From: Bacteroidota bacterium
GTDB taxonomy: Bacteria; Bacteroidota; Rhodothermia; Rhodothermales; JANQRZ01
Assembly: GCA_038746285.1 (NCBI GenBank)
Contig: JBCDKT010000021.1
Location: forward strand, 1-62,446
DNA: 62,446 bases
Reading direction: 5' to 3'
Shown: positions 2,547 through 54,072 of the stretch, piece after piece
How positions within the stretch are numbered: position 1 is the stretch's first letter
How the letters are laid out: the number at the start of each line of letters is the position of its first letter
Program-made: the position numbers and the translations under genes
Notes under the pieces: generated by a model
The model's database searches: none
The model's input: only the letters and a program-made list of their open reading frames with translations
Told to the model about the DNA's origin: nothing

Positions 2547-2698
2547 GACGGCGATGGAAGAAGGGAGACGGCGATGGAAGAAGGGAAAGGGGGAAGATGC
2601 AACACGGACCGCTCTCCTCCACTCTACCATCTTCTATCCTTCTCTACCATCTTCTATCCTTCTGGTCGAGACAGAGCGCGATGGCTTCGCTACCTTTC
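2547..2698 (+). repeat. Promoter-array element F (20-bp units in both arms)
   Basis: Two tandem copies of GACGGCGATGGAAGAAGGGA (2547-2586) are followed, after a spacer, by two copies of CTCTACCATCTTCTATCCTT (2622-2661). Then comes a core with the box TACCTTTC (2691-2698) just before hemG. The layout (purine arm, pyrimidine arm, box) resembles the other array elements in this window, although here the box lies after the pyrimidine arm. Confidence 0.65.
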
Positions 2699-6323: not shown

Positions 6324-6463
6324 GGAGTGGGGAGAATGGATGGAAGAGCGGAAGGGGTCAGGCGCGGAAGAAAGGAAGAGGGCGTTGGCGCAGAGCACAA
6401 CGGCCTCGCTACCTTTCTCAGCTTTCCTGCGCTCTTCCGCTCTTCCGCTCTTCCGCTCTTCCG
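6324..6463 (+). repeat. Promoter-array element G (8-bp units, self-complementary arms)
   Basis: A purine-rich arm contains GGAAGAGCGGAAG (6342-6354). The core carries TTGGCGCAG and the box TACCTTTC (6410-6417). The other arm is four copies of CTCTTCCG (6432-6463). The 13-base segment of the first arm is exactly complementary to 6434-6446, so the element can fold. Both flanking genes are on the minus strand, so the box faces no start codon. Confidence 0.7.
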
Positions 6464-6473
6464 CTCCTGAAGC

Positions 6474-10680: not shown

Positions 10681-11319
10681 ATGACGCTGCTCCTCGCCCT
10701 GCTTCTGACGGTGCCCCTTCCCGACAGCTTGCCCAGCACGCCGCCCGATACGCTCGCCAGCCTGTACGCGCACAACGACTCCGACGGACTGGTGCGCCTG
10801 CACGGCAGCGCGGTCCGCAGCTTGAGCGACGACCTGCTCTACCGCTACCGGCTCTACCCGCTCACGCTCGACGCGCAGTACCTCGACGATCTCCCGGAGG
10901 AGAACGCCTGCGCGACGGCCCAGGACTTCGCGCTGCTGTCCGCGCTCTGGGCCTACCGGGCGGGCGAGGCCCCGCCGTGGAAGATGCCTGTCTACGGCAT
11001 CCGCTCCGACGCCCTGCTCGACCGCGCGCGCGCCCTCGACCCGGACGACCCCTACGTCCTCCTCGTCGCCGGCCAGTCGATGCTCTACCGGCCGAGGATC
11101 TTCGGGCGAAGCCCCGAGAAAGCGCTCGAACTCTTCGAGCGGCTGCGCGGGATCGTGCGGTCGCGCTCGGTGCCGGGCCTCTCCCCGTTCGAGCCCGAGG
11201 TCTGGTTCTGGTACACGCTCCGCGTCCTCGGCCGCCCGAACACGGACCGCGTGCGCGACCGCCTGCTCGCTCAGGGCCCGCCCCCGCTCTTCCACCAGTT
11301 CCTGACCGACCCACCGTAG
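10681..11319 (+). CDS. Exported TPR-like protein of unknown function
   Basis: A 212-residue protein starting MTLLLALLLTVPLPDS, a short signal-peptide-like leader. The middle has helical repeats (ALLDRARALDPDDPYVLLVAGQ, KALELFERLRGIV) resembling tetratricopeptide pairs. It contains no catalytic motif. It follows the acyltransferase by 76 bases on the same strand and precedes the glycosyltransferase, so it may be part of the cluster. Confidence 0.65.
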   Translation: MTLLLALLLTVPLPDSLPSTPPDTLASLYAHNDSDGLVRLHGSAVRSLSDDLLYRYRLYPLTLDAQYLDDLPEENACATAQDFALLSALWAYRAGEAPPWKMPVYGIRSDALLDRARALDPDDPYVLLVAGQSMLYRPRIFGRSPEKALELFERLRGIVRSRSVPGLSPFEPEVWFWYTLRVLGRPNTDRVRDRLLAQGPPPLFHQFLTDPP

Positions 11320-11330
11320 CACCTTCGGTG

Positions 11331-11448
11331 CGGAATGGGAGGAATGGGGAGAACGGGCGGAATGGGAAGCAGCGTCAGCGCGCTGCGCGGATGTCTCGGT
11401 AACTTTCGTGCCTTTTATTTCCACTCCTCCCACTCCTCCCACTCCTCC
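11331..11448 (+). repeat. Promoter-array element A (9-bp units)
   Basis: A purine-rich arm (GGAATGGGAGGAATGGGGAG, then GGGCGGAATGGGAAG) is followed by a core with the box TAACTTTCG (11400-11408). Three copies of CACTCCTCC follow (11422-11448), 23 bases before the glycosyltransferase start. Same order of parts as elements B and D. Confidence 0.7.
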
Positions 11449-11471
11449 CGGCCCGCCCGGCCCTGCCCGGC

Positions 11472-12546: not shown

Positions 12547-12709
12547 GAGGACAGAGGACAGAGGACAGAGGACAGAGGACAGAGGACAGAGGACAGAGGA
12601 CAGAAAGGTAGGCGCGGAGCGCGAGGGGGTCGGTAAATTTCTGGGCTTTTCTTCCCACTCCTCCCACTCCTCCCACTCCTCCCACTCCTCCCACTCCTCC
12701 CACTCCTCC
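12547..12709 (+). repeat. Promoter-array element B (8 x 7-bp, core, 6 x 9-bp)
   Basis: Eight perfect copies of GAGGACA (12547-12602) start right after the glycosyltransferase stop. The core carries GCGCGAGGGGGTCGG, the box TAAATTTC (12634-12641) and GGGCTTTTC. Six perfect copies of CACTCCTCC (12656-12709) end five bases before the pyrF start codon. The 7-mer is the motif of the inverted repeats at 21.56-22.03 kb. Confidence 0.8.
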
Positions 12710-12714
12710 CGCCC

Positions 12715-24821: not shown

Positions 24822-27800
24822 ATGAGTGAGCACAGCCGACAGCTTCTCGACGCCCTGCGCGTGCGTCTCGCGCACGCCCGCCGCCGCGTGCTTGGGGCCG
24901 ACCTCCTCTTCGGGCTCGCTCTCACGCTCGGCGTCCTCGCCGCCGCGCTCGGCCTCGGGGCGGCGCTCGAAGCCGGGTTGTGGATGGGGACGGCGGCGCG
25001 GCTGCTGTTCTACGTCGCCTTCCTCCTCGCGGCGCTCGGCCTTGTCGGGGCGTTCGTCGTCCGGCCGCTCCTGGTGTATTTCGGGGTGCTGCCCGGCCTC
25101 GGGGACGAGGCCCTCGCCGCGCGCATCGGGAAGCGCTTTCCCGAAGTCTCGGACCGGCTGACGAACCTCCTCGACCTCGCGGGCGGGCGCGCGACCGACG
25201 CCCCGGCCCCGCTCCTCGACGGGGCCGTGCAGGCCCTCGGGCGCGCCATCGAGCCGGTCCCCATCGAACGCGTCGAGGACACGCGCCCGGCCAAGCGGAC
25301 CGCTCCGTTCGCCGCCGTGCCGCTGATGGGCCTCGCCCTCTTCGGCCTCTTCGCCCCGGCAACGTTCACCGGGGCCGTTCAGCGCCTCTTCTCCCCGACC
25401 GAGACGTTCGCGCCGCCCGCGCCGTTCAGCCTCGTCGTCGCACCGGGCGACACCGAGATCGTGCGCGGGACCGACCTCACGGTCGAGGTCCGGGCGCGGG
25501 GCCGGGCCGTCCCGCGCGAGGCGACGCTCTGGCTCGGCCGCGTGGGCGAAGAGCGCGCCGACCGGGTCCGCCTCCTCGCCGACTCGTCGGGCACCTTCCG
25601 GCATATGGTCACGAACGTCCGCGAGTCGGTCCGCTACCGCGTCGAGGCCGCGCCGGTGGAGACCGACTGGTTCACGGCGACGGTCGTGGCGCGCCCGACG
25701 GTGCAGGCGCTGAGCGTCACCGCGACGCCGCCGCGCTACACCCGCCTCGCGCCACAGCGCCTCGCCCCGAACGTCGGCGACGTGATCGGGCTGCCGGGGA
25801 CCGAGGTCGCGCTCTCCGCCCGCATCGGCGGCGTCGCCATCGACTCGGCGCGCGTGGTCTTTGATGATGGGACCTCGGTGCGCCTCGACCTCGACGGCGA
25901 GGCGGCGACGGGCAGCTTCCGGCTGCGCCGCGAGGGGACCTACCGCCTCGTCCTCCACGGCACGAACGGCTTCACGAACGCCGACCCGATCTCGTACACC
26001 CTCCAGCTCCTCTCCGACGCCGCCCCGCAAATCCGCCTCCTCGAACCCGGCGCGGACGTGGACCTGAACGAGGCACTCCAAACGAGGGTCGCGGCGCAGA
26101 TCACCGACGACTTCGGCTTCGCCCGGCTCCGGCTCTTCTGGCGCGCGGACGAGTCCGGTTTTGAGGCCGAGGACGCCCCGGACTTCGCCCCCATCGACCT
26201 CCCCATCGCTGAGCCGCGCCTGCTCGACCAGGACGTGGCCTACCCGTGGCTCCTCCGCAGCGTCGCGCCCGGCCTCGCGCCCGGCGACGTGGTCGAGTAC
26301 TACCTGCAAGTCTGGGACAACGACGCCGTCGCGGGCTACAAGTCGGCCCGCACGCCGACCTTCACGCTCCGCTTCCCGTCGCTCGCCGAGCAGTACGACC
26401 AGCTCGACGAGACCGGCGGCGACACCGAGGAGGGCCTGGAAGAGCTACGCCGCGACGCCGACGAGACGCGCGAGCAGTTCGAGGAGCTGCGCGACGAGCT
26501 GCGCCGCAAGCAGGACGCCGACTGGGAGGACCGCCGCCAGCTCGACAACCTCATGGAGCGCCAGCAGAACCTCGACGAGCAGATCGAGCAGGGGGCCGAG
26601 CAGATGCAGGAGCTCCTCGACCAGATGCGCGAGAACGACCTCGTCTCCGAGGAGACGCTGCGGCAGTACGAGGAGATGCAGCGCGTCATGGAGGAGGTCG
26701 CCACGCCCGAGTTGATGGAGGCGCTCCAGAAGCTCCAGGAGGCGATGGAGAACCTCGACCTCCCGCAGATGATGGAGGCAATGGAGGACTTCGAGTTCAA
26801 CGAGGAGCAGTTCCGCGAGCGGATCGAGCGCGCGCTCGACCTCCTCGAAAAGCTCCAGGCCGCACAGAAGCTCGACGAGGCCGCGAAGCGCGCCGAGGCC
26901 CTCGCCGAGCAGGAGGAAGCCTTGCGGGAGCAGACCGGGACGCTCCAGGAGCAGCAGGAGAACGGCGACCTGAGCGCCGAGGAGTCGCAGGCCGAGCAGG
27001 ACCGCCTCGCCGAGGAGCAGCAGCGCGCCCAGGAGGAGGCCGCGGCGCTGGAGCAGCTGATGAAGGAGGTCCAGGAGCAGCTAGAGGGGATGAAGAACGC
27101 GCCCCAGGACGCGCAGGAGCAGATGCAGGAGGCCGCCGAGCAGATGCAAGAGATGCAGGAGCAGATGCAGGAGAACCAGCAGCAGTTGCAGCAGAACCAG
27201 CTCCAGGACGCGCAGGAGGGCCAGCAGCAGATGCAGCAGCAGATGCAGCAGATGAGCCAGCAGATGCAGAGCATGCAGCAGCAGATGTCCGGCCAGCAGC
27301 AGCAGGTCAACCTCGCCGGCCTCCGCCGCGTCCTCGACGACGTGCTCACGCTCTCCTACGAGCAGGAGTCGCTCCGCGCCGAGACCGCCGGCCAGCGCGC
27401 CGACAGCCCGACGCTCCGGCCGAGCGCCTCGCAGCAGGTCGAACTCTCGGCCGGCCTCGCTACGGTCAGCGACTCGCTCCGCAGCCTCGCCCGCGAGGTC
27501 CCGCAGATGGACGTCGAGATCCAGAAGCGCGCCGGCGAGGCGCTCCGCGAAATGGGCGCGTCGGTTTCCGAACTCACCGAGCGCCGCGTCCCGCAGGCCG
27601 CCGGGCACCAGAAGGCGTCGATGACCTCGCTGAACGACCTCGCGCTGCTGCTCTCGGACCTGATGGATCAGATGCAGAACCCGAGCCAGGGCCAGGGGCA
27701 GGGCTCGCCCTCGATGCAGCAGATGATGCAGCAGCTCCAGCAGATGTCCGGCCAGCAGCAGCAGCTCAACCAGCAGATCCAGCAGATGCTGAACGACCGC

Positions 27801-28265
27801 CAGGGCGAGCGCCTGTCGCAGGACCAGCAGGGCCGGATGCAGCAGCTACGCCAGCAGCAGGAAGCGCTCCGGCAGCAGCTCGAAGAGATGGCCCAGAACC
27901 CGAACCTCGACAGCCAGGGCCGGAGCCAGCTCCAGCGCATCGCCGAGGAGATGGAGGAGGCCGCCCGCCGGATGCAGGACGGGCGGATCGACCGCGAACT
28001 CCGCGAGCGGCAAGAGAACATCCTCACCCGCCTCCTCGAAGCGCGCGAGTCGATCAACCAGCGCGGCAAGAAGCGTGAGCGCAAGAGCCAGACCGGCCAG
28101 GACCGCCCGCCCGACGCCCCCGACGCGCTCCCCGAGCAGGACGAGATCGACCGCCTCCGCCGCGACCTGATCCGGGCGCTCGAGAGCGGCTACGCGCCGG
28201 ACTACCAGGAGCTCATCAAGCGCTACTTCGACCTCCTCCAGCAGCGCAACAGCTCAGGCTCGTGA
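24822..28265 (+). CDS. DUF4175 family giant membrane protein with Gln/Glu-rich coiled coils
   Basis: 1147 residues. The N-terminus has two or three membrane spans (VLGADLLFGLALTLGVLAAALGLG, LLFYVAFLLAALGLVGAFVV, then FAAVPLMGLALFGLF). Residues 190-510 are beta-rich Ig-like parts (VTATPPRYTRLAPQRL is a family mark). Residues about 520-1147 are almost entirely helical, built of Q, E, M and L (many QQQM and EQMQE runs), predicted as long coiled coils. This is the DUF4175 architecture of Bacteroidota. Function unknown; an envelope role is likely. An IS sits 12 bases after the stop. Confidence 0.8.
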   Translation: MSEHSRQLLDALRVRLAHARRRVLGADLLFGLALTLGVLAAALGLGAALEAGLWMGTAARLLFYVAFLLAALGLVGAFVVRPLLVYFGVLPGLGDEALAARIGKRFPEVSDRLTNLLDLAGGRATDAPAPLLDGAVQALGRAIEPVPIERVEDTRPAKRTAPFAAVPLMGLALFGLFAPATFTGAVQRLFSPTETFAPPAPFSLVVAPGDTEIVRGTDLTVEVRARGRAVPREATLWLGRVGEERADRVRLLADSSGTFRHMVTNVRESVRYRVEAAPVETDWFTATVVARPTVQALSVTATPPRYTRLAPQRLAPNVGDVIGLPGTEVALSARIGGVAIDSARVVFDDGTSVRLDLDGEAATGSFRLRREGTYRLVLHGTNGFTNADPISYTLQLLSDAAPQIRLLEPGADVDLNEALQTRVAAQITDDFGFARLRLFWRADESGFEAEDAPDFAPIDLPIAEPRLLDQDVAYPWLLRSVAPGLAPGDVVEYYLQVWDNDAVAGYKSARTPTFTLRFPSLAEQYDQLDETGGDTEEGLEELRRDADETREQFEELRDELRRKQDADWEDRRQLDNLMERQQNLDEQIEQGAEQMQELLDQMRENDLVSEETLRQYEEMQRVMEEVATPELMEALQKLQEAMENLDLPQMMEAMEDFEFNEEQFRERIERALDLLEKLQAAQKLDEAAKRAEALAEQEEALREQTGTLQEQQENGDLSAEESQAEQDRLAEEQQRAQEEAAALEQLMKEVQEQLEGMKNAPQDAQEQMQEAAEQMQEMQEQMQENQQQLQQNQLQDAQEGQQQMQQQMQQMSQQMQSMQQQMSGQQQQVNLAGLRRVLDDVLTLSYEQESLRAETAGQRADSPTLRPSASQQVELSAGLATVSDSLRSLAREVPQMDVEIQKRAGEALREMGASVSELTERRVPQAAGHQKASMTSLNDLALLLSDLMDQMQNPSQGQGQGSPSMQQMMQQLQQMSGQQQQLNQQIQQMLNDRQGERLSQDQQGRMQQLRQQQEALRQQLEEMAQNPNLDSQGRSQLQRIAEEMEEAARRMQDGRIDRELRERQENILTRLLEARESINQRGKKRERKSQTGQDRPPDAPDALPEQDEIDRLRRDLIRALESGYAPDYQELIKRYFDLLQQRNSSGS

Positions 28266-30296: not shown

Positions 30297-30305
30297 CGCC
30301 TGTGC

Positions 30306-30467
30306 GGTGAGACGGTGGACGGTGAGACGGTTAGCGCGAAGCGCGAGGGTCTCAGTAGTTTTCCCGGCTTTTCTTTCCACTCCTCTCACTCCTCTCACTC
30401 CTCTCACTCCTCTCACTCCTCTCACTCCTCTCACTCCTCTCACTCCTCTCACTCCTCCCACTCCTCC
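30306..30467 (+). repeat. Promoter-array element C (10 x 9-bp), facing no + strand gene
   Basis: A purine-rich arm (GGTGAGACGGTGGACGGTGA) leads to a core GCGCGAGGGTCTCAG with the box TAGTTTTC (30356-30363) and GGCTTTTC. Then come eight CACTCCTCT and two CACTCCTCC units (30378-30467), ending five bases from the stop codon of the minus-strand kinase gene. The core aligns with element B, but the genes on both sides are on the minus strand. Confidence 0.8.
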
Positions 30468-47308: not shown

Positions 47309-47328
47309 GAGCGATGCGCCTGCGGCGC

Positions 47329-47454
47329 GGAGTGGGAGGAAGGGGGAGAACGGGCGGAATGGGAAGAAGGAACGTCAACGCAAAGCGCGAGGGCCTAATT
47401 AACTTCCTCGGCTTTCCTTTCCACTCCTCCCACTCCTCCCACTCCTCCCACTCC
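47329..47454 (+). repeat. Promoter-array element D (9-bp units, complementary arms)
   Basis: The left arm has GGAGTGGGAGGA (47329-47340), exactly complementary to TCCTCCCACTCC (47425-47436). The core reads GCGCGAGGGCCTAAT with the box TAACTTCC (47400-47407) and CGGCTTTCC. Three CACTCCTCC units follow (47422-47448). A second box, TACCTTCC (47470-47477), stands closer to the start of yqgE. Confidence 0.78.
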
Positions 47455-47505
47455 CACCCTTCCCCGCCCTACCTTCCGCTCTTTCCGACTCCTCACTATC
47501 CCTCG

Positions 47506-49286: not shown

Positions 49287-50459
49287 TCACGCGCCGCGCA
49301 TCCGGCCGACGACCGTCGCGAGCTGCTCGGCGGCGAAGTCGAGGTCGGCCTCGGTCGTGCCGTGCCCGAGCGAGAAGCGGACGGTCGCGTTGGCGGTCTC
49401 GCGAGGAACGTCGAGGGCGCGGAGGACGTGGCTCGGCTCGACGGCCCCACTCGCGCAGGCGCTGCCGCTGGAGACGTGGACGCCCGCCACGTCGAGTCCG
49501 AGGAGGAGCATCTCGCCGTCGAGTGCCCGGCCGTCCACCGGCGGGAACGAGACGTTGAGGATGTGCGGCGCGCTGTCGCCCGGGCTGTCACCTACCGGCG
49601 TATTGAACCGGACGGTCTCGCCGAACGCGTCACGTACCGCTCCGGCTAGCCGGTCGCAGAGCGCGGTCAGCCGTTTTCGCTCCACCTCGGCCATCTCAGC
49701 GGCGAGGGCCAGCGCTTCAGCCAAGCCAACCACGGCAGCGACGTTCTCGGTCCCCCCGCGCCGCCGCCGCTCCTGCGACCCGCCGACGACGAGCGGCGCG
49801 AACGGCGTCCCGGTGCGGACCCAGAGCACGCCCGCGCCCTTCGGCCCGTAGACCTTGTGCGCCGAGAGCGAGAGCAGGTCCACACCGAGATCGTTCACGT
49901 CGAGCGGGTACAGGCCGGCTGCCTGCACCGCGTCGGTGTGGAACGGGACGCCGCGTGCGCGGCAGACGGCGGCGATCTCACGGACCGGGCTGAGGGTGCC
50001 GAGTTCGTTGTTGACCGCCATGACCGAGACGAGCCCGGTCTCGTCGGTGATGGCCTCGGCGATCTGGTCCGCCGTTACGGCCCCGCTCGGCGACGGGGTG
50101 AGGATGGTGACGGGGTGCCCGGCGTCGCGGAGGGCTTCGGCGGGACGGAGGATGGCTTCGTGCTCGGCGGCACCCGTGACGAGGCCCGGCCCGCGCCGGT
50201 CGGGGGCGGTGAGGACGCCGCGCAGGGCCGCGTTGTCGGCCTCGGTCCCGCCGCTCGTGAAGATGACCTCGCCCGGCTCCGCCCCGAGGATCCCGGCCAC
50301 GCGCTCGCGCGCCGACTCTACCGCGAAGCGCGCCCGCCGCCCGAGGGCGTGGACCGACGACGCGTTGCCGTAGTGCTCGCGGAGGTACGGCAGCATCGCG
50401 TCGAGCACGCGCTCGTCGAGCGGCGTCGTCGCGGCGTGGTCGAGGTAGACGGAGGGCAT
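49287..50459 (-). CDS. Cysteine desulfurase (IscS/NifS family)
   Basis: Releases sulfur from cysteine as enzyme persulfide for Fe-S clusters and thiolated products. 390 residues. YLDHAATTPLDERVL, FTSGGTEADNAAL, LSLSAHKVYGPKGAGVLWVR with the PLP lysine, and the flexible loop VSSGSACASGAVEPSHVL with the catalytic cysteine. No IscU or SUF genes are adjacent. The start codon lies five bases from the repeat array K, whose TAATTTCC box is its likely promoter. Confidence 0.95.
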   Translation of the reverse strand: MPSVYLDHAATTPLDERVLDAMLPYLREHYGNASSVHALGRRARFAVESARERVAGILGAEPGEVIFTSGGTEADNAALRGVLTAPDRRGPGLVTGAAEHEAILRPAEALRDAGHPVTILTPSPSGAVTADQIAEAITDETGLVSVMAVNNELGTLSPVREIAAVCRARGVPFHTDAVQAAGLYPLDVNDLGVDLLSLSAHKVYGPKGAGVLWVRTGTPFAPLVVGGSQERRRRGGTENVAAVVGLAEALALAAEMAEVERKRLTALCDRLAGAVRDAFGETVRFNTPVGDSPGDSAPHILNVSFPPVDGRALDGEMLLLGLDVAGVHVSSGSACASGAVEPSHVLRALDVPRETANATVRFSLGHGTTEADLDFAAEQLATVVGRMRGA

Positions 50460-50507
50460 CAGCCGGAGGACGGAGGACGGAGGACGGAGGACGGAGGACG
50501 GAAATTA
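50460..50507 (-). repeat. Promoter-array element K (5 x 7-bp GGAGGAC)
   Basis: Read on the minus strand: box TAATTTCC (50507-50500), five copies of GTCCTCC (50499-50465), GGCTG, then the start codon of the cysteine desulfurase. The 7-mer is the same as in the cassette repeats at 21.6 kb. Confidence 0.78.
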
Positions 50508-52049: not shown

Positions 52050-53840
52050 ATGTCGCTCGCGAGCCCGTCGTCTCCCGCCGAAACGTCCCGCCGTCCGCCT
52101 CCGCTCGGGCGGATGCTGCGGCGCATCCTCGGCTACGCGCGGCCCTACGGGCGGCGGCTCGCGGCGGCGCTCCTGCTCTCGGTCCTCGGTTCGCTCACGG
52201 CGCTCGTCATCCCGCTCGGGCTGCGCGCGCTGATCGACGCCGTCTTCCAGAACGGCGACCGGGGGATGCTCGACACCCTCGCGCTCGCGCTCCTCGCGCT
52301 CTTCCTCGTCCAGACGCTCCTCAGCTTCGTCGGGTGGTACTGGATGGCGTGGGTCGGCGAGCGCATCATCGCGGACCTCCGGCGGCAGGTCTACACGCAC
52401 CTCCACCGGCTCGGGCTGCGGTTCTACACCGGCAGCCGCGTCGGCGAGATCACCTCGCGGCTGACGAACGACGTGGGCAAGCTCCAGTCGGCGGTGACGA
52501 ACGACCTGAGCCAGCTCGTAGCGCAGGTACTGACGCTCGTCGGGTCGGTGGCGCTGATGCTGGTCCTCAACTGGCGGCTCTCGCTCGTCGTCTTCGCCAC
52601 GGTTCCGGTCGTGACGCTGATGGCGCGGCACTTCGGGGCGATCGTCCGGCGCTACGCCCGCGCCATCCAGGACCGCCTCGCCGAGACGACGGCGATTGCC
52701 GAGGAAGCCCTCGCAGCGGTGCGCGTCGTGAAGGCGTTCGCCCGCGAGGACTACGAGACCGACCGCTACGGCGCGGCCGTCGAGGACCTCTTCGGGACGG
52801 CGCGGCGGCAGGCGCTCATCAGCTCGGCCTTCTGGTCGGTCGTCGGGCTGCTGTTCCTCAGCGGGCTGGTCGTCATCTTCTGGTACGGCGGGGTCGAGGT
52901 CCTCGCGGGTCGGCTCACGGCGGGCGACCTCGTGGCGTTCATCTTCTACGCGTTCTCGATTGCCCAGAGCGTCGGCGTGCTCTCGCGGCTCTACACCTCG
53001 TACTCGTCGGCGGCGGGCGCATCCGAGCGGGTCTTCGAGCTCCTCGATACCGAGCCGGAGATCGAGAGCGCGCCTGGGGCGAAGCCGCTCCCGCCGCTCC
53101 GGGGCGAGGTCGCCTTCGACGACGTGACCTTCGGCTACGACGACGGGCCGCCCGTGCTGCGCGACGTGTCGTTCCGCGTGCGGCCCGGCCAGACCGTCGC
53201 GCTCGTCGGGCCGAGCGGGGCCGGCAAGACGACGCTCATGAACCTCATCCCTCGACTCTACGACCCCGACCTCGGGGCGGTCCGCCTCGACAGGCACGAC
53301 CTGCGCGACGTGACGGTGCTCTCGGTGCGCGGCCAGATCGGCCTCGTGTCGCAGGAGATCCAGCTCTTCGGTGCCTCGATTGGCGAGAATATCCGCTACG
53401 GGCGGCTAGACGCGACCGACGACGAGGTCCGCGCCGCCGCCGAAGCTGCGAACGCTGCCGCCTTCATCGAGGCCCTGCCGGGCGGCTACGCGACCGCCGT
53501 CGGCGAGCGCGGCGTCAAGCTCTCCGGCGGCCAGCGCCAGCGCGTTGCGATTGCCCGCGCCCTCCTCAAAGACCCTCGCATCCTCCTCCTCGACGAGGCC
53601 ACGAGCGCGCTCGACTCCGAAAGCGAAGCGCTCGTGCAGGAGGCGCTCGACCGCCTGCTCGACGGCCGGACGGCGTTCGTCATCGCCCACCGCCTCGCGA
53701 CCGTCCGCGACGCCGACCGCATCCTCGTGCTCGACGCAGGCCGGATCGTGGAAGACGGTACCCACGCCGACCTCACCGCCCGCGACGGCCTCTACCGCCG
53801 CCTCGCCGACCTCCAGTTCCGCGAGACCGTGGAGGCGTGA
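52050..53840 (+). CDS. ABC-type lipid/multidrug exporter (MsbA-like)
   Basis: A 596-residue half-transporter: six membrane helices in the first 340 residues, then the ATPase with GPSGAGKTTLMNLI (Walker A), LSGGQRQRVAIARALL (signature), ILLLDEATSALDSESE (Walker B) and IAHRLAT (H-loop). It works as a homodimer; MsbA-type lipid A core export or drug export is possible. The ATG at 52050 is used; the TTG at 52038 is also in frame. Confidence 0.9.
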   Translation: MSLASPSSPAETSRRPPPLGRMLRRILGYARPYGRRLAAALLLSVLGSLTALVIPLGLRALIDAVFQNGDRGMLDTLALALLALFLVQTLLSFVGWYWMAWVGERIIADLRRQVYTHLHRLGLRFYTGSRVGEITSRLTNDVGKLQSAVTNDLSQLVAQVLTLVGSVALMLVLNWRLSLVVFATVPVVTLMARHFGAIVRRYARAIQDRLAETTAIAEEALAAVRVVKAFAREDYETDRYGAAVEDLFGTARRQALISSAFWSVVGLLFLSGLVVIFWYGGVEVLAGRLTAGDLVAFIFYAFSIAQSVGVLSRLYTSYSSAAGASERVFELLDTEPEIESAPGAKPLPPLRGEVAFDDVTFGYDDGPPVLRDVSFRVRPGQTVALVGPSGAGKTTLMNLIPRLYDPDLGAVRLDRHDLRDVTVLSVRGQIGLVSQEIQLFGASIGENIRYGRLDATDDEVRAAAEAANAAAFIEALPGGYATAVGERGVKLSGGQRQRVAIARALLKDPRILLLDEATSALDSESEALVQEALDRLLDGRTAFVIAHRLATVRDADRILVLDAGRIVEDGTHADLTARDGLYRRLADLQFRETVEA

Positions 53841-53841
53841 C

Positions 53842-54072
53842 GGTGGGACGGAGGACGGTGGGACGGAGGACGGTGGGACGGAGGACGGTGGGACGGAGGA
53901 CGGTGGGACGGAGGACGGTGGGACGGAGGACGGTGGGACGGAGGACGGTGGCGCGTTGCGCGGCGGCCTCAGTACCTTGATAGGCTCTGCTTTTGACACC
54001 CTCACACCCTCACACCCTCACACCCTCACACCCTCACACCCTCACACCCTCACACCCTCACACCCTCACACC
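53842..54072 (+). repeat. Promoter-array element E (7 x 15-bp, core, 9 x 8-bp)
   Basis: Seven perfect GGTGGGACGGAGGAC units (53842-53946) begin one base after the ABC transporter stop. The core has GCGCGGCGGCCTCAG and the box TACCTTGA (53973-53980). Nine perfect CTCACACC units (54001-54072) end one base before the ATG of the cyclophilin gene. Confidence 0.85.

Follow-up and report, generated by a model that had tools for sequence, protein, structure and literature searches.

The intergenic DNA of a Rhodothermales bacterium harbours a dispersed family of non-coding elements, roughly 100-250 bp in size, in which a purine-rich arm, a 47-bp core and a pyrimidine-rich arm follow one another on one plan, the arms usually consisting of tandem arrays. 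Judged from synteny and strand skew, nearly all of these elements point against the direction of replication, irrespective of gene direction. Our preferred reading, to which we give about an even chance, is that they represent a dispersed, probably mobile element that takes one orientation relative to replication and whose arms are expanded and replaced by slippage.

A shared core in dispersed intergenic elements

The genome under study (G000) is a 4.08-Mb, 134-contig, 96.6%-complete draft, one genome of its species, and the window is one of its contigs in full (C21; 62,446 bp). The nearest relative compared, G001 (MAG JANQRZ), is a sister species of the same genus; a second relative is denoted G002. 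An earlier note on the window had described elements A, B, D and E as sharing one order of parts, with related layouts at C, F, G and K. The common order is real, and the core profile recovers a gapless 47-bp core in A, B, C, D, E and G (Table 1). Among the related layouts, C and G thus carry the full core, whereas F has a partial core and breaks the order because its pyrimidine array precedes the core, and K is an array only, which reads as a pyrimidine leader directly upstream of the minus-strand gene at 49287-50459. Tandem-repeat analysis (TRF) also bore out the unit lengths given there (7, 8, 9, 15 and 20 bp). Element B lies between a TGA immediately upstream and a start codon shortly downstream. 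Elsewhere in the window, long CAG-rich imperfect repeats (9, 12 and 21 bp; 27105-27885) occupy part of a large gene (24822-28265).

Table 1 Features of the elements in the window and related sites elsewhere (window positions unless a contig or locus is named)
Feature	Position	Strand	Basis and remarks
B, upstream purine array (GAGGACA)8.3	12547..12604	+	TRF, 100% match
B, core, 47 columns, includes TAAATTTC	12609..12655	+	Core profile, 47.9 bits
B, downstream pyrimidine array (TCCCACTCC)6.4	12653..12710	+	TRF; stops 5 bp short of next start codon
A, hairpin GCACCTTCGGTGC (11319-11331) and purine arm	11319..11374	+	Sequence reading; hairpin variants
A, core	11375..11421	+	Profile, 36.8 bits
A, pyrimidine array (CCACTCCTC)3.2	11421..11449	+	TRF
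C, purine arm CGGTGAGACGGTGGACGGTGAGACGG	30305..30331	+	Both neighbouring genes on minus strand
C, core	30331..30377	+	Profile, 53.2 bits; missing at orthologous sites of two relatives
C, pyrimidine array (CACTCCTCT)9.9	30378..30466	+	TRF
D, hairpin GCGCCTGCGGCGC (47316-47328) and purine arm	47316..47374	+	Sequence reading; hairpin variants
D, core	47375..47421	+	Profile, 40.1 bits
D, pyrimidine array (CCACTCCTC)3.8	47421..47454	+	TRF
Conserved native -7 box CCCTACCTTCC	~47466-47476		3' of and outside Element D
E, purine array (GACGGTGGGACGGAG)7.5	53839..53951	+	TRF
E, core, divergent	53948..53993	+	Profile, 35.6 bits
E, pyrimidine array (ACACCCTC)9.6	53996..54072	+	TRF
G, purine-rich arm	6324..6384	+	Sequence reading
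G, core	6385..6430	+	Profile, 42.4 bits; neighbours called minus strand
G, pyrimidine array (CGCTCTTC)4.6	6430..6466	+	TRF
F, purine array 2547-2586, pyrimidine array 2622-2663, partial core 2672-2698	2547..2698	+	18-19 bits
K, purine array (CGGAGGA)5.6, without recognisable core	50464..50502	+	TRF
GGCGACC..GGTCGCCCCTAC module	L208, L210, L204 (G002); C82:10455, C15:33109, C35:24029 (G000)
Coreless arrays of sister species	L070:8733-8759; G001:C16:419515-419541; C2:172771-172852

The family is more numerous than the earlier note stated, and its proposal of a dispersed family on one plan holds across the genome. The 18-mer CCACTCCTCCCACTCCTC matches 117 times, against 0 for its reversed control, and about 40 distinct elements recovered by DNA search with both core and array follow one plan when set side by side. 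From 42 copies we derived a core of 47 columns, 7 of them invariant, in an alignment without internal gaps (consensus TTGGCGCGGAGCGCGAnGGnCTCGGTAACTTTCTCGGCTTTTCTTTC). Within the core lie a hairpin of the form GCGC-N3-GCGC, the promoter-like box TAnnTT and a further box, GGCTTTTCTT; hairpin, TAnnTT box and T-rich box contain the invariant positions, and the GCGC..GCGC stem is retained in 63 of 88 cores with a variable loop. The profile of this core, which draws on sequence only, exceeds 20 bits at about 115 places, an average density of about 28 elements per Mb, and 86 of 88 cores are intergenic by our own gene caller. Neither outcome that the earlier note named as counting against its proposal, a lack of further copies in the genome or cores aligning no better than shuffled intergenic DNA, was thus observed. 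Contigs C9, C19, C39, C85, C20, C58, C15 and C40 start, and C53, C25, C56, C43, C65 and C82 end, in or beside elements. As many contigs of this short-read assembly break inside elements, copy number and array length are probably underestimated.

Arms of fixed strand bias and changing units

We surveyed tandem arrays in 844 kb of the genome, chosen around cores rather than as a random sample. There, 100 intergenic arrays met the criteria, 76 of them within 40 bp of a core. Arrays upstream of a core were purine in 20 cases, pyrimidine in none and mixed in one; downstream, 53 were pyrimidine, none purine and two mixed. Strand bias is therefore kept despite the differences in unit, as had been claimed from the window, in 20/20 and 53/53 non-mixed arrays, respectively. 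Several of the other 24 arrays belong to cores that are diverged or cut by contig ends (for example, C4:44550/44677). Purines make up on average 0.74 of the 60 bp upstream of the core and 0.25 of the 60 bp downstream. The units vary widely between loci and are mostly perfect inside a locus. Subfamilies also exist in which copies at unrelated loci have core and arms in common, which fits the spread of whole elements.

Orientation relative to genes and replication

The elements are near random with respect to their neighbours: the downstream gene runs in the direction of the core in 44 cases and opposite to it in 33, and the upstream gene in 41 and 45, respectively, by our own gene caller, of which single calls may be wrong. 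The cores of C and G oppose both flanking genes as called here. Within contigs, by contrast, orientation is uniform in 29 of the 31 contigs with two or more cores, the two exceptions being weak matches; 123 of 128 same-contig pairs agree, a uniformity reached by none of 20,000 permutations. Gene orientation was rejected as its cause, because coding strands are balanced on both classes of contig and the flanking genes are near random.

The GC3 and AT3 skews of the genome itself are too weak and uninformative to indicate fork direction, and we therefore used synteny to G001, the skew of which is clear. The elements of the eight contigs that map to G001:C16 are all '+', and every one of the ten 50-kb bins there has a negative GC skew. 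Those of the seven contigs that map to G001:C2 and C20 are all '-'; of the 12 blocks there, 10 show a positive GC skew and all 12 a negative third-position AT skew. Assuming that orthologous segments replicate in the same direction in both species, elements run against the fork in 15/15 mapped contigs, on both replichores. One polarity also extends across contigs joined by split genes (ftsH, C20-C18; atpD, C88-C7), and housekeeping loci on element contigs lie mostly opposite to the elements, at about 10 to 4, a tendency only. The earlier note had set the layout relative to the start codon; this is not supported, as orientation ignores the adjacent gene and follows replication. Polarity against the fork whichever way genes point marks a dispersed family tied to replication, not simply the promoters of its neighbours.

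A change in the sign of GC skew at ~150-200 kb of G001:C23 is likely the origin. None of the element stretches maps within the 400 kb surrounding it (G001:C23:1-400000). Contigs C1 and C17 share gyrB/ftsZ and dnaA/rpsB with the sister-origin region and are devoid of cores scoring more than 20 bits; the surroundings of the inferred origin thus appear free of elements.

Such polarity could also arise if the cores were functional sites, bound or read by a factor of the fork or chromosome arm and kept in orientation by selection, with the arrays as slippage scars at a polar pause. The near-absolute polarity on both replichores, the element-free origin region and the equal conservation of the core whichever way the next gene points (co-oriented against opposed scores, p = 0.41) all agree with this account. 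KOPS and architecture imparting sequences are likewise replication-polar DNA motifs (PMC2680272, PMC5993296), but they are 8-bp motifs and not a 47-bp core in almost wholly intergenic copies. We consider the account unlikely, since the very few cores in the same-genus sister suit an essential function poorly and copies have arms, not just the core, in common.

Relation to native promoters

Counted away from elements, ordinary genes of the same genome carry TAnCTT 20-60 bp before their starts more often in sense than in antisense (96:37; 118:38 in G001), and native leaders are rich in pyrimidines. The core box TAnnTT, present in 43/44 of the cores co-oriented with the next gene and 28/33 of the opposed ones, matches this -7 box of ordinary genes, and in this respect resembles a Bacteroidota-type promoter, with its TAnnTTTG-like -7 box. 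The comparison of the core to a -7 box was thus well founded, and 'promoter-like' is a fair description. The core can probably start transcription, and it may drive the next gene where orientations agree.

These features would be expected if ordinary promoters, with leaders rich in pyrimidines, had arisen in situ, the arrays being slippage in existing purine or pyrimidine tracts with no mobility involved. Several sites lend themselves to this interpretation. Element E occupies the place of a native promoter region, and the leader CCTCACACC, also present in G001, lies within the pyrimidine array of E, which apparently grew from it. At K the period is equal and the unit differs (GGACGGA in G000 versus GGCAGAA in G001), and C66:3060 and C60:11759 likewise keep their layout with other units. 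Nevertheless, 33 of 77 cores face an opposed downstream gene with no change in score, a conserved native promoter box is left outside both C and D, a 47-bp core with a hairpin far exceeds a -7 box, and orientation is uniform by contig. As a full account, in-place evolution therefore strikes us as improbable, and the promoters of adjacent genes explain part of the story at most.

Comparison with relatives

Element C, which lies between a stop codon and a conserved -7 box on the minus strand, is cleanly absent in G001 and G002. Other element-sized insertions relative to G001 include C18:33646, C58:14481 and C4:5393, and the intergenic spacer is longer in G000 at 15 of 17 comparable sites. No target-site duplication was clear by eye in empty-site alignments, the flanks of which are ~18% diverged. 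At C66:3060, C60:11759 and C4:75292, the layout or promoter box was already in place in the sister species, so in-situ evolution contributes. The layout at C66:3060 is common to both species, with both arms replaced around a diverged core; together with K, this site supports at orthologous positions the proposal that array units are interchangeable.

The sister species has very few cores, and G002 has about seven diverged ones, some with their own arrays; at a further G002 site, GGTCAGTG and ACACCTCC arrays flank CCTCGGTACCTTTC. These comparisons indicate that the plan predates the species, that copy number rose in the G000 lineage and that units turn over fast. Among the genomes searched, the arm motif GGACAGAGGACAGAG occurs only in G000 and G002. 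Across the order outside the family, core matches are not clearly above noise, and those inspected in distant Rhodothermales (G053, L061, L065 and L067) look coding and are probably due to chance. The sister species also has spacer arrays of its own between genes, without a core (AATCAGCT, ATTAGCTG and CCAATCAC; Table 1).

Hairpins, candidate enzymes and known systems

Transposons of the IS200/IS605 and Tn7 types are known for an orientation that depends on the fork (PMC5371812, PMC6006769), and the elements resemble IS200/IS605 members in that orientation follows replication (PMC5371812), here in 15/15 contigs. REPs, in turn, are short, palindromic and extragenic (PMC6006769, PMC3116915, PMC5371812). 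The elements might accordingly be hairpins of REP/REPIN or MITE type, with the purine and pyrimidine arms pairing as terminal inverted repeats, given their polarity like that of lagging-strand transposons, the near complementarity of some arms (A and D) and the compensated pair between hairpins GCGCCTGCGGCGC and GCACCTTCGGTGC. But the arms of one element are no more complementary than arms of different elements (867 of 2,000 permutations at least as good), which indicates that no stem is maintained; the arms as a specific stem were rejected on this ground. Only short hairpins were found, rather than two inverted palindromes forming one long hairpin, and in place of terminal inverted repeats the arms vary independently of each other. 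No Y1 transposase (PF01797), whether a cognate RAYT or an IS200/IS605-type TnpA able to act in trans, was found in the 96.6%-complete assembly, and target duplications are not clear. We regard this explanation as very improbable. The elements differ from both IS200/IS605 and REP/REPIN-RAYT systems in the lack of a Y1 match and of a REP doublet hairpin and in having a core flanked by arrays of changing unit.

G002 has one Y1 transposase (L201). A different hairpin module, GGCGACC..GGTCGCCCCTAC, precedes some cores in both genomes (Table 1), and its complement begins GTAGGGGCGA, which is REP-like. Genes between close copies resemble ordinary housekeeping genes, as judged from sequence starts only. 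The single reverse transcriptase found in G000 (L202, C77:2632-3231) is an unlikely partner, as it adjoins genes reading like cas1 and cas2, with which it may form an RT-Cas1 CRISPR adaptation module.

BOX elements of Streptococcus pneumoniae are similarly small intergenic repeats with fixed modules and a variable-copy tandem module, but as described they have one boxB unit family, in contrast to the many unrelated units found here, and their strand bias is just 60.8% leading and mirrors coding bias (PMC3049150), whereas the orientation of the present elements is nearly absolute and gene-independent. Correia repeat enclosed elements of Neisseria are comparable as mobile non-coding repeats with promoter sequence; they are bounded by inverted repeats, and the published abstract mentions no purine/pyrimidine tandem arrays beside them (PMC2649163). 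In the open-access literature, we found neither a description from Rhodothermales nor the combination of fork-dependent orientation and a modular, tandem-array build with many units and no transposase found.

Model and implications

Under our preferred reading, that of a probably mobile element, copies would be inserted by events that sense the fork, through the discontinuous strand or the sliding clamp, and by a putative trans-acting enzyme; alternatively, a fork-linked function might maintain them. The arms would then expand, homogenize and change unit through replication slippage. Weighing against this reading are the absence of a Y1 match, the position of the only reverse transcriptase beside cas1/cas2-like genes, the housekeeping look of genes between close copies, the lack of a clear target-site duplication and the sites at which the sister species already shows the layout or a promoter box. 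More tentatively, the family may be selfish or functional DNA of a new class, in which a promoter-bearing core spreads in fork orientation without a recognisable transposase and actively seeds purine and pyrimidine arrays with units replaced over time; we incline against this stronger form.

Small dispersed repeats of near-absolute fork polarity, with no transposase found, would record how short DNA enters replicating chromosomes. The combination of a fixed strand rule with free units allows the birth of repeats and the replacement of their units to be measured at over 100 sites in one genome. Furthermore, should the core function as a promoter, the element also disperses promoters directed head-on at replication forks.
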